Positions 21,144 to 32,401 of a stretch of DNA of 42,840 bases are shown one piece after another (the first letter of the stretch is position 1; each line of letters begins with the position of its first letter). This DNA is from Polyangia bacterium. GTDB taxonomy: Bacteria > Myxococcota_A > Polyangia > Polyangiales > Sandaracinaceae. The position numbers and the translations under genes are program-made. The notes below the pieces were generated by a model, which made no database searches, was not told the origin of the DNA, and saw only the letters and a program-made list of their open reading frames with translations. The stretch lies in the NCBI GenBank assembly GCA_030426845.1, contig JAUHXR010000037.1, positions 1 through 42,840 of the forward strand, read 5' to 3'.

Positions 21144-22268
21144 ATGAGCGTCCGCGTGAGCCAAGCGTTCGACGGCGGGAACGCGGAGGTCCTCGAGGCC
21201 TCGGCGCCCGACGCGATCCGCCTCTCGATCCGCCCCGACGCCGGCGGTGAGTTCCTCCAGTGGTTCTACTTCCGGGTGAGCGGCGCCGGCGGCCAGGACC
21301 TCGTGATCCGCCTCGAGAACGCAGGCAAGGCCACCTACCCGCGCGGCTTCGCGGACTACCGCGCCGTGGCCTCGGTCGACCGCGTCGCCTGGCGGCGGAT
21401 CGACACCGACCTCGACGGCGGCGTGCTCACCCTGCGCTACCCGAGCGCGCCGGACAGCGTCTACTTCGCGTACTTCGCGCCCTACTCCATGGAGCGGCAC
21501 CACGACCTCGTGGCGCGGTGCGCGAGCGACCCGCGCGTGTCGCTGGAGGTCCTCGGCGCGACCCTCGACGGCCAGGATCTCGACCTGCTTCGCCTCGGCG
21601 ACGGGCCGCTCCAGATCTGGGCCATCGCGCGCCAGCACCCCGGCGAGACGATGGCCGAGCACTGGATGGAGGGCTTCCTCGCGCGGCTCCTCGACGCCGA
21701 CGATCCGCTCGCACGCCAGCTCCTCGCGGCCGCGACCTTCCACGTCGTCCCGAACATGAACCCGGACGGCAGCCGGCGCGGCCACCTGCGCACCAACGCG
21801 GCGGGCGCCAACCTCAACCGCGAGTGGCTCGAGCCGTCGATGGAGCGCTCGCCGGAGGTGTTCCTGGTGCGCGAGCGCATGCGCGCCACCGGGGTCGATC
21901 TGTGCCTCGACGTCCACGGCGACGAGGGCCTGCCCTACAACTTCATCGCGGGCTCGGACGGCATCCCCTCGTGGACCGCGCGGCAGGGCGAGCTGCTCGA
22001 GCGCTACAAGGCGGCGCTGGCCCGCGCGTGCCCGGACTTCCAGACGGCCCACGGCTACCCGCGCGCGGCCGCGGGCGAGGCGAACCTGCGGATGTGCACG
22101 AACTGGGTCGCGGAGACCTTCGGGTGCCTGGCGATGACCCTCGAGCAGCCGTTCAAGGACGCGGCGAACCACCCGATGCCGGAGACCGGCTGGTCACCCG
22201 CGCGCTGCGCGCACCTCGCCCGCGGCTGCGTCGACGCCCTCGCCGACGTGCTCGCGGACCTGCGCTGA
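21144..22268 (+). CDS. M14 metallocarboxypeptidase, cytosolic-carboxypeptidase (CCP) type
   Basis: A 374-residue cytoplasmic enzyme with no signal peptide. Residues about 1-135 match the beta-sandwich N-domain of the CCP/AGTPBP1 group (FLQWFYFRVSG, a central W, and YFAYFAPYS). The M14 zinc site is HPGE (H165, E168) plus H258 in DVHGDE, and the catalytic glutamate is E334 in MTLEQPF. PNMNPDGSRRG and ANLNREW carry the substrate-binding Asn-Arg features of this subfamily. Eukaryotic relatives remove glutamates from tubulin tails. Bacterial ones are presumed to trim acidic C-termini of unknown proteins. It is transcribed alone behind the hairpin at 21081-21132. Confidence 0.9.
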   Translation: MSVRVSQAFDGGNAEVLEASAPDAIRLSIRPDAGGEFLQWFYFRVSGAGGQDLVIRLENAGKATYPRGFADYRAVASVDRVAWRRIDTDLDGGVLTLRYPSAPDSVYFAYFAPYSMERHHDLVARCASDPRVSLEVLGATLDGQDLDLLRLGDGPLQIWAIARQHPGETMAEHWMEGFLARLLDADDPLARQLLAAATFHVVPNMNPDGSRRGHLRTNAAGANLNREWLEPSMERSPEVFLVRERMRATGVDLCLDVHGDEGLPYNFIAGSDGIPSWTARQGELLERYKAALARACPDFQTAHGYPRAAAGEANLRMCTNWVAETFGCLAMTLEQPFKDAANHPMPETGWSPARCAHLARGCVDALADVLADLR

Positions 22269-24983: not shown

Positions 24984-26522
24984 TTGACGAACCCCGCCGA
25001 CAACCCGCCCGTCGATGTCATCGACGCCGCTTTGCTTGAGCTCGGCCGCGAGCGAGGCTTCCTCAGCTACGACGAGGTCTGCGATCGGCTGGCCGCCGAC
25101 GGCGTGGACCTCGCGCGCGAGGTCCCCCGCGTGATGCGCGCGCTCGAGGCCGAGGGCATCGCCCTCGCCGACGGCGCGAGCCGCGGACGCGCTCCATCCC
25201 GGCCCCGCTCTCGCGCGCGCGGCCCCCAGCTCGACAGCGTCGAGCGCTACCTCGGTCGGCTCGGCGACGTGGCCCTGCTGACGCGCGACGGTGAGATCGA
25301 GCTCGCCCGTCAGATCGAGCGCGGTCGCGAGCGTGTGCTCGACGTCCTCTGGAACACGCCGGTGACCTTGCCGATCCTCGGCGAGACCCTGGCCGCCCTC
25401 GAGGCCGAGCGCGTCAGCGTGCGCGAGGTCGTCTCGGCCTCGCTGCGCAAGGGCACCGAGGAGGAGGCCGCCGCTCTCGCGGACACCCTCGAGAAGCTCC
25501 GCGCCGTCGCGCGGCTCGAGGCCGCGATCGCGTCTACGAAGAGCGCGGCGCGCGCCACCAAGCTGCGCGCGGAGCGGGCCGAAGCGCTCGGTCAGCTCAG
25601 CTTCCACGAGAAGATCCTCGAGCGCATCTACACCCGCTTCGACGGGCTCCGTGCGCGCCTCCGTCGCGCCGAGCGCCTCCAGGGCGTCGACCCGGCGGAG
25701 GCCAAGCGCCTGCGTCGCGCGGTCGAGCAGGAGGCGGGCACGAGCGCCGCGGTCGTCCGGGAGAGCGCTGAGGCGCTCCGGGAGGGCCTGGCCGCGGTCG
25801 ACGAGGCCAAGGCCGAGATGGTGGAAGCCAACCTGCGCCTCGTGGTCTCGATCGCCAAGCAGTACCGGGGCCGCGGGCTCCCGTTCCTCGACCTGATCCA
25901 GGAGGGGAACATGGGCCTCATGCGCGCGGTCGAGAAGTACGACTACCACAAGGGCTTCCGCCTCTCGACCTACGCCGGCTGGTGGATCCGCCAGTCGATG
26001 AACCGCGCGACGCAGGAGCAGGGCCGCACGATCCGCGTCCCGGTGAACGCGCTCGAGCGCTTCCACCGCGTGATGCGGCTGATGAACGAGCTCACCCCCA
26101 AGCTCGGCCGGGCGCCGACCCCGCGTGAGATCGGCCGCCGCCTGGACATGCCCGAGGCGCGCGTGCGCGAGCTGCTTCAGGCGATGCGCGACACGGTGAG
26201 CCTCGACGTCCCGGTGGGCGAGGATGGCAGCTCGACCCTCTGCGACCTCGTGGTCGACCCGGAGCAGTCCACCCCGATGCAGCCCCTGGTGGACGTGAGC
26301 CTCGAGTCCGCGCTCCAGGACGCCCTCTCGACCTTGTCGCCGCGCGAGCGCGAGATCCTCGAGATGCGCTTCGGGATGGGCGGCGAGGAGGAGCACACCC
26401 TCACGGACGTCGGCGACAAGTTCGGCCTCAGCCGCGAGCGCATCCGCCAGCTCCAGGTCCAGGCGCTCAAGAAGCTGCGCGAGGCGAGCGGTGCGGCCCT
26501 GGCCGACTTCGCCGAGGCCTGA
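24984..26522 (+). CDS. RpoD-like sigma-70 factor
   Basis: A 512-residue RNA polymerase sigma factor. The TTG start at 24984 is supported by GGAAGGA 5 bases upstream. An N-terminal winged-helix-like region (1-60, [11 protein letters not shown]) resembles sigma region 1.1. Region 1.2 is near 83-110, and a long helical non-conserved region spans about 120-270. Region 2 (about 275-350) contains [20 protein letters not shown] and [12 protein letters not shown]. Region 3 spans about 365-420, and region 4 ends with the helix-turn-helix [19 protein letters not shown]. Region 2.4 ([14 protein letters not shown]) departs from the usual primary sigma (ARTIRIPVHMIE), so it may be a group 2 or a second RpoD-like factor. 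A 75-base gap separates it from the transporter gene. Confidence 0.9.
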
Positions 26523-26597: not shown

Positions 26598-29500
26598 GTG
26601 GCGAGCAAATCCGACAGCAAGTTCGGCACGTTCGGCGGCGTCTTCACGCCGTCGATCCTGACGATCCTCGGCGTCATCATGTACCTGCGCCTGCCCTGGA
26701 TCGTGGGGCACGCGGATCTCACGATGGCGCTCGGCATCGTGCTCGCCGCGCACGTGGTCAGCGTCTGCACGGGCCTGAGCATCTCGTCGATCGCGACCGA
26801 CAAGAGCGTCGGCGCCGGCGGCCCCTACTACATCATCTCGCGGAGCCTCGGCCTGCCGATCGGCGGCACGCTCGGCGTCCCGCTGTTCCTCGGGCTGAGC
26901 TTCTCGATCAGCCTCTACGTGATCGGTTTCTCCGAGAGCTTCCTCGCGGTCCTCGACGTCCCGATCACCCCCAACGCGCTCCGCGTCTGCGGGACGATCA
27001 CGATCGTGCTGCTGACGATCATCACGTTCGTCAGCACGTCCCTCGCGATCAAGACGCAGTACCTCATCCTGCTGCTGATCGGCGTCTCGCTCCTCGCCGT
27101 CTTCACCGGCGATCCCGACCGGCTGCAGCCCGAGGCGCTCGTCAACGAGCCGGGCGACGGTGACCTGAAGACCCTCTTCGGCATCTTCTTCCCCGCGGTC
27201 ACCGGGTTCACCGCGGGCGTCAACATGTCGGGCGACCTGCGCGACCCGAAGCGCGCGATCCCCGCCGGCACGATGGCCGCGATCGTGGCCGGGCTGGGCG
27301 TCTACCTGGCGCTCGCGATCTTCCTCTCGCTCCGGGTCCCCACCGAGCACCTGCTCCGGAACCCGCGCGTGCTCGAGCAGATGGCCCTCTTTGGCCCCGC
27401 CGTCACCGCCGGCATCTGGGGCGCGACGCTCTCGAGCGCGCTCGGGAGCATCCTCGGCGCGCCGCGGATCCTCCAGACGATCAGCGCGGACGGGATCACC
27501 CCGCGCTGGTTCGCCAAGGGCTACGGGAAGACCAACGAGCCGCGCAACGCGCTCCTCCTCGCGTTCGTGATCGGCGAGCTGGGCATCCTGATGGCCGAGC
27601 TCGACGCGATCGCGCGCATCGTCTCGATCGTCTTCATGACCCTCTACGGCTTCCTCAACGTGGCGGCCGCGATCGAGGGCTGGGTGAGCCCGGACTTCCG
27701 CCCGGACTTCCGGATCCCGAAGACCGTCAGCGTCGTGGGCGCCGTCACCACGCTGCTCTTGATGATCAACATGGACCTCGCCGCGATGGCGGGCGCCACC
27801 GTCCTGATGGCGGTCCTCTACGTCTGGCTCCAGCGGCGCCAGCTCGCGCTCGAGTCGGGGGACGCGTGGGAGGGCATCTGGTCGTCGCTCGTCCGCGCCG
27901 GGCTCCACCGCCTCTCCACCGCCACGCGCCAGACCCGCAACTGGCGACCCAACATCCTCATGTTCCGGCCGGACGACGGCGCGCCCCGCGAGGCGCTCCG
28001 CCGGACCGCGGGGTCGCTCATCACGGGCAACGGGATGCTCACCGATCTGCGGCTGCGAGCCCCCGGCGAGCGCTCGACCGCGATCGACGACCTCGACGAG
28101 GGCCCGGTCGTCGGCGTGTTCGGTCGCTCGGTCGAGACGGCGGACCCCTTCGCGACGATGGACGCGCTGGCGCAGTTCCATGGCTTCGCGGGGATCGAGC
28201 CGAACACCGCGCTCATCGACTGGGACGCCTACGCGGCGGACGGCGAGCGCTTCGGGGGACTGATCGATCGCCTCCGCGAGCGCGACCTCAACGTGCTCCT
28301 CTTCAGCGACGCGACCCACGAGCCGCCCCCCGGCTCGGACCCGCGGGTCGACGTCTGGTGGCGGCCCGACAGCTCGCCGGCCCTCGGCATCTCGCTCGCC
28401 CGCTTCCTCACGGGGAGCGCGGCCTACCGCGGCGCGAAGGTCCGCTTCCTCACCGTCGCCCCCCGGAGCGCGATGGGCGACGGCCTGAGGAACGCGGCGC
28501 GGCGCATGCTCGAGGAGGCGCGGCTGAGCGCAGAGGTCGAGGTGATCCTCGACAGCGTCGATCCCCGGCCGCTCGCCGAGCACGTCGCCGATCGGTCCCG
28601 GGACGCGAAGCTCGCGATCGTCGAGCTGCCCGCACCGCCGCTCGCGCCGGTCTTCGACGAGCTCGCGGCGGTGACGAAGGCGGTCCCGAGCGTGCTCTTC
28701 ACCGCGCCGAGCTCCGTGTTCCGGAGCGTCGGCCGCGTCGTACGCGAGGTCGAGCCGGACCGAGACCCGGTCGAGCCCGCGCCCCTGACCCTCGAGCCGC
28801 TCTCGCTCCCGGGCACCGAGGCGCTCGCGCGGCGCGCCGAGTCGTTCGCGGCGCGCCTCGAGGCGGCGGCCCTCGCGCTCCATGACGACGCCCTCGCGCG
28901 GATCGCGCGCCGCGACGCCAAGCTCCTCGAGCGGGTGACCGACACGGTGGAGCGACACTTCTCCCAGCTCGCGGCCGGCCTCGACACCCCGAACCCGACC
29001 AAGCGCCGCCGCCTCGTCAACCGGATCCAGTCGTCGCTCCTGCTCGACTACCAGAAGGTCATCGACGAGTTCGTGCAGCAGGATCTCGTCGACCAGCGCG
29101 ACATCCTCGAGGGGCGCCTCCTCGCGCTCACGAGCGACGCGACCCTCGTCGAGGCGGACGGCGCGACCGAGGTGACCCGGCCGGCCGCGGACTTCGCGGC
29201 GCAGCCCGACGACTCGCGCGAGCTGACGCGGCTCAAGGCCGCGCGCTTCAAGGAGGCGAGCGGTGACACGGTCACCTACACCATCGACGTCGAGCCGCTG
29301 CAGCGCTTCTACGTGGACAAGGAGCTCCTCGCGCTGGCCGAGGAGACGGTCCACGAGCACGTGACCGAGAGCTGGAAGCTCACCATCCAGCTCATGCGGC
29401 TGCTTAACGCCTCGCGCACCTCCATGACGCTCATCCACGGCGGCCCGCAGACCGACGGCGAGGCCCTCGGCGCGTTCGTCGAGTCGGAGCGGGACGCGGC

Positions 29501-31688
29501 GACCGGGCGGCTCGCCGACCTCTGGGAGACCCACCTCGCGCGCTGCGACGCGCGACGCGGCGAGCTCGCGGCCCACGCGCGAGAGCTCGCCCAGGACTAC
29601 GCAGACGACCTCGACCGCGTGGACTACCCGCTCTTCGTCGCGGCGCGCCGCCGGCCCGTGAGGGACGCGGACGCGGCCCGCGCAGAGCTCGTCCAGGCGG
29701 CTACGGTGTTCTTCGACAACCAGCGCGCGCTGTTCGAGCGGGCGCGCGCCGGCCTGCGCGTCTCCGCGTTCCAGCACCGGCTCGCGACGATCGTCGAGCG
29801 CACGCGCGAGGCGATCACGATCGAGGTGAGGAACGGGGTCCTGAGCGGTTGCCGCGAGGTGGAGCGCGAGCTCGCGCGGTTCCTCGACGACGAGTCGCTC
29901 GACAAGCTGCGGGTCAGCGCCGACCTGTCGCACCGCTTCGATCCGCAGCAGGTGATCGATCAGCTCGCGCGGGACGGCCAGCGCTCGGCGGAGGAGCTGC
30001 CCGAGTCGGTGCCCACCCTGAGCGACGAGTCGATCCAGCGGCTCGCCGAGGGCGACGCGGACGAGGTCGAGGTCGTCGACCTGCCGCTCAAGCGCCTAGC
30101 CCAGTTCCTGGTCGACGCGGAGCTGGTGGGCCCCCTGACCGAGCTGCTGGCCACCGTGCCTGCGCTCGAGGAGCGCGCGCTCGGGGTGGCGGAGGACGTC
30201 ATCCGGCTGCTCGCGTTCCACCAGCAGGAGCTCGAGGCGGGCCGCGCCGAGGCGAGCTTCCACGCGCACATGCGCCCGGTGGTCGAGAGCGGGATCGAGC
30301 GCGTGCGCGCCGAGAAGGCGCCGCTCGAGGCGATCATCCCGGAGGTCGAGGCCGCGCTCGACCGGCGGCTCGAGGCGGTGCTCCGCGGGACCGACGTCTA
30401 CGAGCTCACCGGCTCGGCCCAGGCGCTCGGCCAGCACATCCGCCGTCACCAGGGTCAGCGCGCGGTGTCGGGCGCGCAGTCGCTCGCGCTTCGAGGCGTG
30501 GCGCGGATCCGGCGCACGCTGGTCGGCGCGATCTACGGGCGAAGCGCGGGCGTGATCATGGCCCAGCGCCTGCGCGACCAGGGCGAGGCCGCGGGCGCGC
30601 TCGTCGACCTGGTGTCGCGCTTCGTCGAGGGGATGAGCCCCTCCGCCTCGGTGCTCGAGGACCTGCCGTTCTACTACCGGCAGCTCTTCTTCGGGAAGAC
30701 GACCCTCAACGAGACCTTCTGGGTCGAGCGCGAGGTCGAGCTCGCGAGCGCGCGACGCGGCATCTCGCAGCACGAGCGGGGCGCGCGCGGCGTGCTCGTG
30801 GTCACGGGCGAGCGGGACAGCGGCAAGACCGCGCTCTGCCGCCGCCTCGCCGGCCGCGCGCTCTCGGGCCGCGAGGTGTTCTGGGTCACCCCGCCCGAGA
30901 CGTCGACCCCGCGCGTCGACGCGTTCCGGCAGGCGCTCACCGACGCGACTGGCCACGGCGGGCGGCCGACGAACATCATCGCCGCGGTGCCGGACCGCGC
31001 GGTGGTGGTGATCGAGGACCTCGAGCTGTGGTGGGAGCGGAGCCCCGGCGGCCTCGCGGTCGTCGACGAGCTGCTCTCGCTGATCGAGACCCACGCCGGG
31101 CGGGTGCTCTTCGTGGTGGAGATCGGCGTGCACGCGCTCGAGCTGCTGGGTCGCTTCCGACCGCTGCTTGACCACGCGCTCAGCGTGGTCGAGTGCGGGC
31201 CGGTCGACGCCGAGGCGATCAAGGAGATCGTGACGCTCCGCCACGCCTCGACGGGGATGCGCTTCACCCTCGAGGGCGTGCACCAGGACGAGCTGTCGGA
31301 CTGGCGCGAGGCCCGCCTCTTCAACGGGCACTTCAGCGCGAGCCGGGGCCTCGTCGGGGCGGCGCTCACGTCGTGGATCACCCACATCGAGGGGGCCGAC
31401 GGGCGCTCGATCGCGATCGCGCCGGCCGCGCGCGACGACTGGGAGCTGCTCGACCGCCTGCGGCCCGAGTGGGTCGCGCTGCTGGTGCAGCTCCTCTTGC
31501 ACAAGCGCGTCACGACGGCCGGCCTCGCCCGGGTGAGCGGCCTCGAGCGCCGGGCGCTCGATCACAAGCTCGACGTCCTGACCCGGATGGGGCTCGTCCA
31601 CCGCTCGCAGAGCGGCACGCTGCGCCTCAACCGCTTCGTCGCCCACGCCCTGGTGGAGCGGCTCCGCGCGCGGAGGGCCATCTCGTGA
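26598..31688 (+). CDS. SLC12-type cotransporter fused to P-loop ATPase and winged-helix domain
   Basis: A single 1696-codon frame starting with GTG at 26598. Residues about 10-430 are an APC-superfamily permease of the SLC12 cation-chloride cotransporter type (FGTFGGVFTPSILTILG, then IMYLRLPWIVG; about twelve spans). Residues about 447-700 match the SLC12 cytoplasmic domain: RNWRPNILMF at 447-456, VDVWWRPD around 585, and a UspA-like end. About 715-1395 is a long helical region with no recognised family. Walker A is GERDSGKT (1404-1411) and Walker B is VVVIED (about 1469-1474), so residues about 1395-1620 are an AAA+/STAND-like NTPase. The last 72 residues (from 1625) look like a winged helix (TTAGLARVSGLERRAL and a turn to LDVLTRMGLV). 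Its stop overlaps the MscS-like gene start. The transported ions and the role of the ATPase are unknown; NTP-gated or osmotic control of ion flux is inferred. Confidence 0.85.
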   Translation: MASKSDSKFGTFGGVFTPSILTILGVIMYLRLPWIVGHADLTMALGIVLAAHVVSVCTGLSISSIATDKSVGAGGPYYIISRSLGLPIGGTLGVPLFLGLSFSISLYVIGFSESFLAVLDVPITPNALRVCGTITIVLLTIITFVSTSLAIKTQYLILLLIGVSLLAVFTGDPDRLQPEALVNEPGDGDLKTLFGIFFPAVTGFTAGVNMSGDLRDPKRAIPAGTMAAIVAGLGVYLALAIFLSLRVPTEHLLRNPRVLEQMALFGPAVTAGIWGATLSSALGSILGAPRILQTISADGITPRWFAKGYGKTNEPRNALLLAFVIGELGILMAELDAIARIVSIVFMTLYGFLNVAAAIEGWVSPDFRPDFRIPKTVSVVGAVTTLLLMINMDLAAMAGATVLMAVLYVWLQRRQLALESGDAWEGIWSSLVRAGLHRLSTATRQTRNWRPNILMFRPDDGAPREALRRTAGSLITGNGMLTDLRLRAPGERSTAIDDLDEGPVVGVFGRSVETADPFATMDALAQFHGFAGIEPNTALIDWDAYAADGERFGGLIDRLRERDLNVLLFSDATHEPPPGSDPRVDVWWRPDSSPALGISLARFLTGSAAYRGAKVRFLTVAPRSAMGDGLRNAARRMLEEARLSAEVEVILDSVDPRPLAEHVADRSRDAKLAIVELPAPPLAPVFDELAAVTKAVPSVLFTAPSSVFRSVGRVVREVEPDRDPVEPAPLTLEPLSLPGTEALARRAESFAARLEAAALALHDDALARIARRDAKLLERVTDTVERHFSQLAAGLDTPNPTKRRRLVNRIQSSLLLDYQKVIDEFVQQDLVDQRDILEGRLLALTSDATLVEADGATEVTRPAADFAAQPDDSRELTRLKAARFKEASGDTVTYTIDVEPLQRFYVDKELLALAEETVHEHVTESWKLTIQLMRLLNASRTSMTLIHGGPQTDGEALGAFVESERDAATGRLADLWETHLARCDARRGELAAHARELAQDYADDLDRVDYPLFVAARRRPVRDADAARAELVQAATVFFDNQRALFERARAGLRVSAFQHRLATIVERTREAITIEVRNGVLSGCREVERELARFLDDESLDKLRVSADLSHRFDPQQVIDQLARDGQRSAEELPESVPTLSDESIQRLAEGDADEVEVVDLPLKRLAQFLVDAELVGPLTELLATVPALEERALGVAEDVIRLLAFHQQELEAGRAEASFHAHMRPVVESGIERVRAEKAPLEAIIPEVEAALDRRLEAVLRGTDVYELTGSAQALGQHIRRHQGQRAVSGAQSLALRGVARIRRTLVGAIYGRSAGVIMAQRLRDQGEAAGALVDLVSRFVEGMSPSASVLEDLPFYYRQLFFGKTTLNETFWVEREVELASARRGISQHERGARGVLVVTGERDSGKTALCRRLAGRALSGREVFWVTPPETSTPRVDAFRQALTDATGHGGRPTNIIAAVPDRAVVVIEDLELWWERSPGGLAVVDELLSLIETHAGRVLFVVEIGVHALELLGRFRPLLDHALSVVECGPVDAEAIKEIVTLRHASTGMRFTLEGVHQDELSDWREARLFNGHFSASRGLVGAALTSWITHIEGADGRSIAIAPAARDDWELLDRLRPEWVALLVQLLLHKRVTTAGLARVSGLERRALDHKLDVLTRMGLVHRSQSGTLRLNRFVAHALVERLRARRAIS

Positions 31689-32401
31689 GCGCGCCGTCGA
31701 CCTGGGAGGTCCTGCGGGTGCTCGTCTACGGCGGGCTCCTCTACGCGGCCCTGCGCGGCGCGCGCTTCGGGATCGACGTAGCCCCCCTCTCGGCCCTGCG
31801 CCGCGAGGCGCTCCGGCGCGCGTTCCCGGCGTTCGCGGGGCTCTGCGCGGTCGGCTACCTCCTCTACGTCTGCGGCGCGCTGACCGAGCCCGGGACGCCG
31901 GCGTTCTGGATCGCGATCGCGATCGTCCTCCTGGGCAGCCTCGGCGCCTCGTGGTTCGCGCTCTACGACATGGTGAGCGGCGTCTTCCTCAAGCTCGGTC
32001 GCGTCTGCCAGGTGGGCGACTACGTGCGGGTCGGCGACGTGCAGGGTCGGGTCGAGCGGATGGGCGCGCGCGTCCTCGTGGTGGAGACCGCACGGGGCGA
32101 GGAGGCGATCATCCCGTACAGCCGCGTGGTGCGCGACTCGGTGCTGCGCACGCCGGTGTCCGAGCGCGGCACGCTCCACGTGTTCGAGCTGCACCTGCCC
32201 GGGCGGCCCGCGGTGGCCGAGACCAAGCGCCGCATCCGCGAGAGCGCGCTGCTCTGTCACTGGGCCGCGGTCGCGCGCGACCCGGAGATCGCGGTCCTCG
32301 ACGCCGACCGCTACGAGGTGACGGTGTTCGCGCTCGACGCCGACCGCGTGCGCGAGGTCGAGGAGGCCGTCCGCGCGGGGGTCGACGCCTCGGCCCCGTG
32401 A
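31685..32401 (+). CDS. MscS-like small mechanosensitive channel
   Basis: A 238-residue membrane protein starting with GTG that overlaps the preceding stop (GTGA), so it is translated with the fusion protein. Three hydrophobic segments (about 8-28, 50-68 and 73-100) end with the pore-type helix SLGASWFALYDMVSGVFLKLG. The MscS beta domain follows (QVGDYVRVGDVQGRVERMGAR, IIPYSRVVRD). The alpha/beta vestibule segment is short. Such channels release solutes when membrane tension rises on hypo-osmotic shock. Together with a cation-chloride cotransporter homologue, this suggests a two-way system for cell volume or ion balance. The pairing is certain in sequence, the joint function inferred. Confidence 0.85.
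   Translation: MSAPSTWEVLRVLVYGGLLYAALRGARFGIDVAPLSALRREALRRAFPAFAGLCAVGYLLYVCGALTEPGTPAFWIAIAIVLLGSLGASWFALYDMVSGVFLKLGRVCQVGDYVRVGDVQGRVERMGARVLVVETARGEEAIIPYSRVVRDSVLRTPVSERGTLHVFELHLPGRPAVAETKRRIRESALLCHWAAVARDPEIAVLDADRYEVTVFALDADRVREVEEAVRAGVDASAP

Follow-up and report, generated by a model that had tools for sequence, protein, structure and literature searches.

To our knowledge, the cation-chloride cotransporters known so far end after the SLC12 domain. In Kef systems, a CPA2 antiporter with an RCK domain works together with an ancillary protein and is controlled by its cytoplasmic nucleotide-binding part. Animal cells manage their volume with cotransporters that load ions, channels that release them and kinases that tie both together. 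The locus analyzed here, located in a window of 42,840 nucleotides (the whole stretch of DNA under study; contig C44, in a draft genome that measures 9.4 Mb), can be compared with each of these. Its first gene shares with SLC12 (TC 2.A.30; NKCC1/KCC, archaeal MaCCC) a whole transmembrane (TM) domain, a cytoplasmic domain and the ion-site residues typical of Na+-dependent members, but it adds about 1000 residues with an ATPase and is linked to a channel gene. It shares with Kef an ion transporter with a cytoplasmic nucleotide-binding part, and a sister class found here is itself CPA2-based; however, an AAA+/winged-helix module replaces RCK, and a dedicated MscS-like channel gene is present. This channel has the 3-TM fold of MscS and MscK, unlike which it forms its own clade and adjoins the gene of an ATPase-bearing membrane protein; after the beta-domain it reads PYS where E. 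coli MscS has PN. Our preferred reading, to which we give a probability of about 0.58, is that both genes form a cassette for ion and turgor homeostasis, where transport is coupled to a dedicated vent by an AAA+ switch tethered to the membrane. Feature coordinates are collected in the table.

Table. Features of the fusion gene and the channel gene; residues are numbered along the fusion protein
Feature	Position in window	Strand	Basis
Fusion gene (CCC, helical region, AAA+ ATPase, winged helix)	26598..31688	+	1696 aa, single open frame
CCC (SLC12) transmembrane domain, residues 5-415	26610..27842	+	TIGR00930, AA_permease, NKCC1 alignment
Residues L21, G25, V26, P199, G203, A276			Equivalent to NKCC1 L297, G301, V302, P496, G500, A610
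Residues Y107, T202, S279, S280, Y350			Equivalent to NKCC1 Y383, T499, S613, S614, Y686
SLC12 cytoplasmic C-terminal domain, residues 416-700	27843..28697	+	phmmer match to KCC2 up to 650
Long-helix region, residues 701-1345	28698..30632	+	AF2 model
AAA+ ATPase domain (LPFYYRQLF ... LELWWERS), about residues 1357-1605	30666..31412	+	AAA_22, Foldseek
Walker A GERDSGKT, residues 1404-1411	30807..30830	+	GK[ST] in 61/61 aligned fusions
Walker B VVVIED, residues 1469-1474	31002..31019	+	Acidic residue kept in most fusions
Winged-helix domain, about residues 1615-1696	31440..31685	+	AF2 model, HTH_metalloreg
GGAGGG, likely ribosome-binding site of channel gene	31672..31677	+	Read from sequence
Dedicated MscS-type channel gene, 238 aa, three TM helices	31685..32401	+	MS_channel_2nd, AF2

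The fusion reads from a GTG start through 1696 codons, without internal stop, to TGA at 31686-31688. The first-pass annotation had proposed such an uninterrupted frame, and full-length, stop-free homologues in other genomes bear it out. A search of 97 related genomes returned them in several families, at 39-65% identity, and the closest relatives among named records are Sandaracinaceae (Myxococcota). A frameshift or assembly error joining two genes between codons 700 and 1395, which the annotation had named as a possible refutation, was rejected: the domain order is kept in homologues from other assemblies and is shared by 61 full-length proteins. Its other possible refutation, an ATPase encoded as a separate, unlinked gene beside an unrelated neighbour, fails in general as well, the fusion and its channel link being widely conserved. 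At two loci (L069:691-5901 and L083:3-4680) the transporter TM part is a separate open reading frame just upstream of the one carrying the SLC12 domain and the ATPase; this two-gene arrangement may be a real split or an assembly frameshift.

Scanning the ATPase part over one genome per species gave 77 loci, and 61 full-length fusions in the same domain order, from at least eight phyla, made up the alignment set. The titles or lineages of the locus records name Myxococcota, Thermodesulfobacteriota, Bacteroidota, Chlorobiota, Calditrichota, Gemmatimonadota, Fidelibacterota, Cloacimonadota, Delongbacteria and Rhodothermota. In nearly all complete loci, a single frame of 1600-1800 aa encodes the transporter, then the SLC12 domain, the helical region, the ATPase and finally the winged helix, and the two-gene set of fusion plus MscS-like channel is present in at least eight bacterial phyla. 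Paraliomyxa miuraensis and Desulfoluna limicola are carriers available in culture. In a quick-method tree that included 20 unfused cotransporters, the fused ones group on a single branch (support 99), so these sequences are most simply explained by one origin of the fusion. The cassettes of L047, titled Calditrichaceae, and L049, titled Deltaproteobacteria, are nearly identical, the likely causes being a mislabelled bin, a mixed one or a recent transfer.

That the protein begins as a cotransporter with its own SLC12 cytoplasmic domain, as had been claimed, was confirmed by a TIGR00930 (K-Cl cotransporter) match at residues 4-542 (E 2.6e-103, below the model's curated cut-off) and by solved KCC/NKCC structures. 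These align with residues 3-650 (E about 1e-68), and a weak third phmmer match places the C-terminal end of KCC2 at residues 659-682; the whole cytoplasmic domain therefore appears to be present. The equivalents of NKCC1 L297, G301, V302, P496, G500 and A610 are kept in 61/61 fusions, and those of Y383, T499, S613, S614 and Y686 in 60/61. The numbering in our alignment agrees with that of the structural paper, in which Y383 coordinates K+, A610, S613 and S614 belong to the Na+ site and Y686 to the Cl- site (PMC7889885). A YY pair at residues 77-78 was considered as the K+ tyrosine and rejected, given that the NKCC1 numbering points to Y107. NKCC1 N298 and W300, which act there by backbone carbonyls, correspond to Thr and Leu in the window. 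KCC2 has no serine pair at the Na+-site position in the alignment. Because each of the equivalents listed above is retained in at least 60 of the 61 fusions and the serine pair is absent from KCC2, we predict that the window's transporter is an NKCC-like Na+-dependent symporter. The ATLSS signature seen here is the same as that reported for bacterial CCCs in 2024 (PMC11641049).

One member of the window's own family (L032:6098-11065, the same locus as L020) has lost the Tyr, the Thr, both Ser and the second Tyr together. The K+, Na+ and Cl- site residues are thus gone, yet Walker A and the channel gene are kept, so transport seems dispensable there, a point against the cassette, and the cotransporter is possibly a pseudo-transporter serving as an anchor or a sensor.

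The stretch that follows, described as 680 unassigned residues by the annotation, comes down to about 640 (residues 701-1345). No family match and no sequence match to solved structures was found for it. It is made up of two repeats, one at about residues 741-1005 and the other at about 1024-1287, which hhalign relates to each other with probability 94 (E 1e-7). Each has a beta pair, and the helices of the region are up to 74 residues long in the AF2 model of residues 701-1696 (59 sequences, mean pLDDT 86.8).

Both nucleotide-binding motifs were located where the first-pass annotation had them, within an AAA_22 match at residues 1396-1492 (E 2e-6, over the cut-off); LELWW follows Walker B in the fusion alignment. 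The P-loop domain most resembles AAA+ proteins of the ORC/Cdc6 type. ATPase and winged helix together match A. pernix ORC2 (Foldseek E 1.6e-7; VIA Z 15.6, rmsd 5.3, 317 aligned), and in the Foldseek order archaeal ORC2 comes first, then other ORC/Cdc6 and AAA+ proteins, with Apaf-1, a STAND protein, lower. The nSTAND_NTPase5 profile reaches 21.3 bits against a cut-off of 34. Walker A, Walker B and a C-terminal winged helix, three of the marks of ORC/Cdc6-like AAA+ proteins, are all present. As in ORC/Cdc6 and STAND proteins (Apaf-1, P. abyssi PABY2304), P-loop, helical domain and winged helix follow in order; unlike in either, they are fused to a membrane transporter via a duplicated helical arm and the recognition helix is not basic on average.

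The winged-helix-like end that had been noticed at first corresponds to a weak HTH_metalloreg match (residues 1629-1683, E 0.007), and it is backed by the AF2 model and by MarR_2 matches in the winged helix of two relatives. An ORC/Cdc6-type ATPase with a winged helix, MarR-like in relatives, would also suit a membrane-tethered regulator in the style of MalT- or CadC-like proteins, in which the transporter would be a sensor (transceptor) and the ATPase-winged-helix part would bind DNA and control the channel gene and others. The ortholog without ion sites that keeps the remainder of the protein fits such a regulator, as do stand-alone ATPase versions in Flavobacteriales. However, the recognition helix is about neutral (mean net charge about 0, with only 12/59 reaching +2), its surface positions are variable among the aligned fusions, and the constant neighbour is the channel gene, a constancy not required of a mere target gene. 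We consider this regulator unlikely.

The stand-alone proteins, of about 1120 aa and present in at least three Flavobacteriales, consist of helical region, ATPase and winged helix (L063:7820-11191, L107:2446-5814 and L054:6579-9941). These three have an intact Walker A, GEQN[AS]GKT, and no transporter part, and they count against a universal nucleotide switch. No channel gene was seen near those of L063 and L107, the latter sitting behind a miaA-like gene, and the L054 stretch ends too soon to show one.

The channel gene starts with GTG at 31685, so that it overlaps the TGA of the fusion as first described; the mechanical open reading frame at 31193-32401 is an over-extension. The protein matches MS_channel_2nd, the MscS beta-domain (E 2.3e-11), and its AF2 model (pLDDT 94.1) shows three TM helices, a beta-domain and an alpha/beta domain, with MscK and MscS as its best solved-structure matches (Foldseek E ~2e-12). 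All 61 channel partners (61/61) fall into one clade (support 100/99), separate from the 10 other MscS paralogues that come from the window's genome. The window's genome has 13 MscS domains, of which the MscS proteins of L161 and L169 group with sister-class partners.

How often the MscS-like gene follows the fusion had been proposed as a check, and it does so in 58 of the 71 loci with room for it: among all 77, the homologue is directly downstream in 58, six stretches end too early and 13 are without it there. In one of these 13 (L086), a channel homologue lies upstream instead. Ten fused loci, L086 included, are without the downstream gene, and we count them against the cassette. Five Chlorobiota/Bacteroidales fusions of this kind (L072, L073, L089, L090 and L093) have a gene of 233-239 aa directly upstream. 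Its interpretation as a displaced MscS was rejected, since the product is an outer-membrane beta-barrel in the three tested (L072, L090 and L093).

Unfused cotransporters of relatives have no such ATPase module, and a channel gene of this kind was found in 0/20 of their loci, that of the window's genome included, some of the stretches being short. Because sister classes have the channel while these unfused cotransporters do not, the channel travels with the ATPase module and not with the transporter. Weak support for a coupling of the two comes from the evolutionary distances of ATPase and channel, which are correlated, with a partial r of 0.62 after removing the transporter's contribution vs. 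0.33 for the SLC12 domain, although this could reflect similar evolutionary rates.

The sister classes carry the same ATPase/winged-helix module on other membrane proteins. It ends CPA2 (Na_H_Exchanger) fusions of about 1500 aa (hhalign E 1e-38; Pfam) and a third class composed of a signal peptide, a periplasmic part and 4-6 TM segments, a topology read from hydropathy (hhalign E 5.5e-27). In loci picked by their ATPase and not by the channel, an MscS-like gene directly adjoins 18/20 of the CPA2 class, the exceptions being L139, where it is 2 kb away, and L148, where none was seen; it directly adjoins 9/9 of the 4-6 TM class. The window's genome has one set per class, on C44, C405 (L170) and C273 (L161). 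L170:2184-9499 (G000:C405) holds a CPA2-ATPase cassette and then its MscS-like gene; at L161:2-2010 (G000:C273), at least the ATPase end of a protein of the 4-6 TM class is present, and its MscS-like gene comes next. Our computations thus establish domain order, ion-site and Walker residues, adjacency, co-inheritance, channel clade and module reuse.

In the CPA2-class sequences seen, Walker A reads GKR or GKA, the Ser/Thr being replaced by Arg or Ala. This bears on another explanation, namely that the ATPase is an assembly or remodelling factor for the channel or the transporter and not a physiological switch. An AAA+ fold with a long helical arm and the adjacency with overlapping frames would suit such a factor; the altered Walker A would not, nor would a transporter fused in cis, given that unfused relatives exist without any such module. 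We regard it as quite unlikely.

The first-pass annotation offered a membrane-acting immune module as an alternative. In an anti-phage version of it, the ATPase would detect infection and the MscS-like channel would make the membrane permeable. STAND-like P-loop matches, a channel that could be an effector and a patchy distribution speak for it. However, the window's neighbours are housekeeping genes (sigma factor, malic enzyme, glutamyl/glutaminyl-tRNA synthetase), as are those at other loci (chorismate synthase, NADH dehydrogenase), and the locus is syntenic in the relatives G005 and G003. PADLOC matches in the fusion are weak and partial (Csa3, E 8e-4; CARF, 0.0075; mad8, 0.008); neither the channel nor the neighbours tested, among them eight at three other loci, gave any. 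Searches of plasmid and phage collections were negative. Retention of the ion-site residues in 60/61 fusions is a further argument against defence, which we find unsupported and very unlikely. Elsewhere in the window, positions 21144-22268 encode a cytosolic-type (CCP-like) M14 carboxypeptidase; its synteny, together with that of the sigma-70 gene (24984-26522), extends to relatives.

The homeostasis interpretation of the annotation fits best, in view of the ion sites (60/61), the dedicated channel and the recurrence of the module on a CPA2 antiporter; its idea that NTP state gates transport is a conjecture, and general nucleotide switching is doubtful, because Walker A is GKR/GKA in the CPA2 class. 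Control of ion loading and release is the most likely role, since the ATPase module and the channel are constant while the membrane part varies among ion transporters. The homeostasis cassette could work as follows. The first protein would be an NKCC-like Na+/K+/Cl- symporter whose cytoplasmic end bears the long helical arm and the ORC/Cdc6-type AAA+/winged helix, and the second a dedicated MscS-type channel able to release ions. Upon osmotic upshift, the transporter would load K+ and Cl- together with Na+. The AAA+/winged-helix module, tethered to the membrane by the transporter, would react to ions, crowding or energy state by switching between nucleotide states and, via the arm or the winged helix, set the opening of the neighbouring channel, so that ion loading and venting are kept from running together. 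We infer transport activity, nucleotide switching, channel contact and the direction of control, as well as the step from ATPase-channel linkage to gating. The symmetries of a CCC dimer, an MscS heptamer and an AAA+ ring do not obviously match, which counts against the cassette.

We also put forward, tentatively and with more doubt than belief, a general device: one AAA+/winged-helix switch on exchangeable membrane parts (an NKCC-like symporter, a CPA2 antiporter or a periplasmic 4-6 TM sensor) that directly opens or closes a dedicated MscS-type channel. If true, membrane tension would not be all that gates an MscS-type channel, as a protein machine would do so too.

All parts of the system come from known families. 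The literature searched (open-licence papers) gave no description of the fusion or the cassette, and none of this combination of parts, of a module shared by three platforms or of the dedicated channel clade; an earlier mention elsewhere is possible. Taken together, the fusion and channel set suggests that bacteria couple the uptake of ions to their release in a manner not described before. If the homeostasis cassette is real, bacteria of at least eight phyla would encode loading, a nucleotide-dependent switch and a release channel together, in a unit re-used on unrelated transporters. It raises the question of whether an MscS channel can be gated by an AAA+ module. MscS-type channels would gain a candidate protein partner, and bacterial NKCC-like transporters a testable physiological setting.
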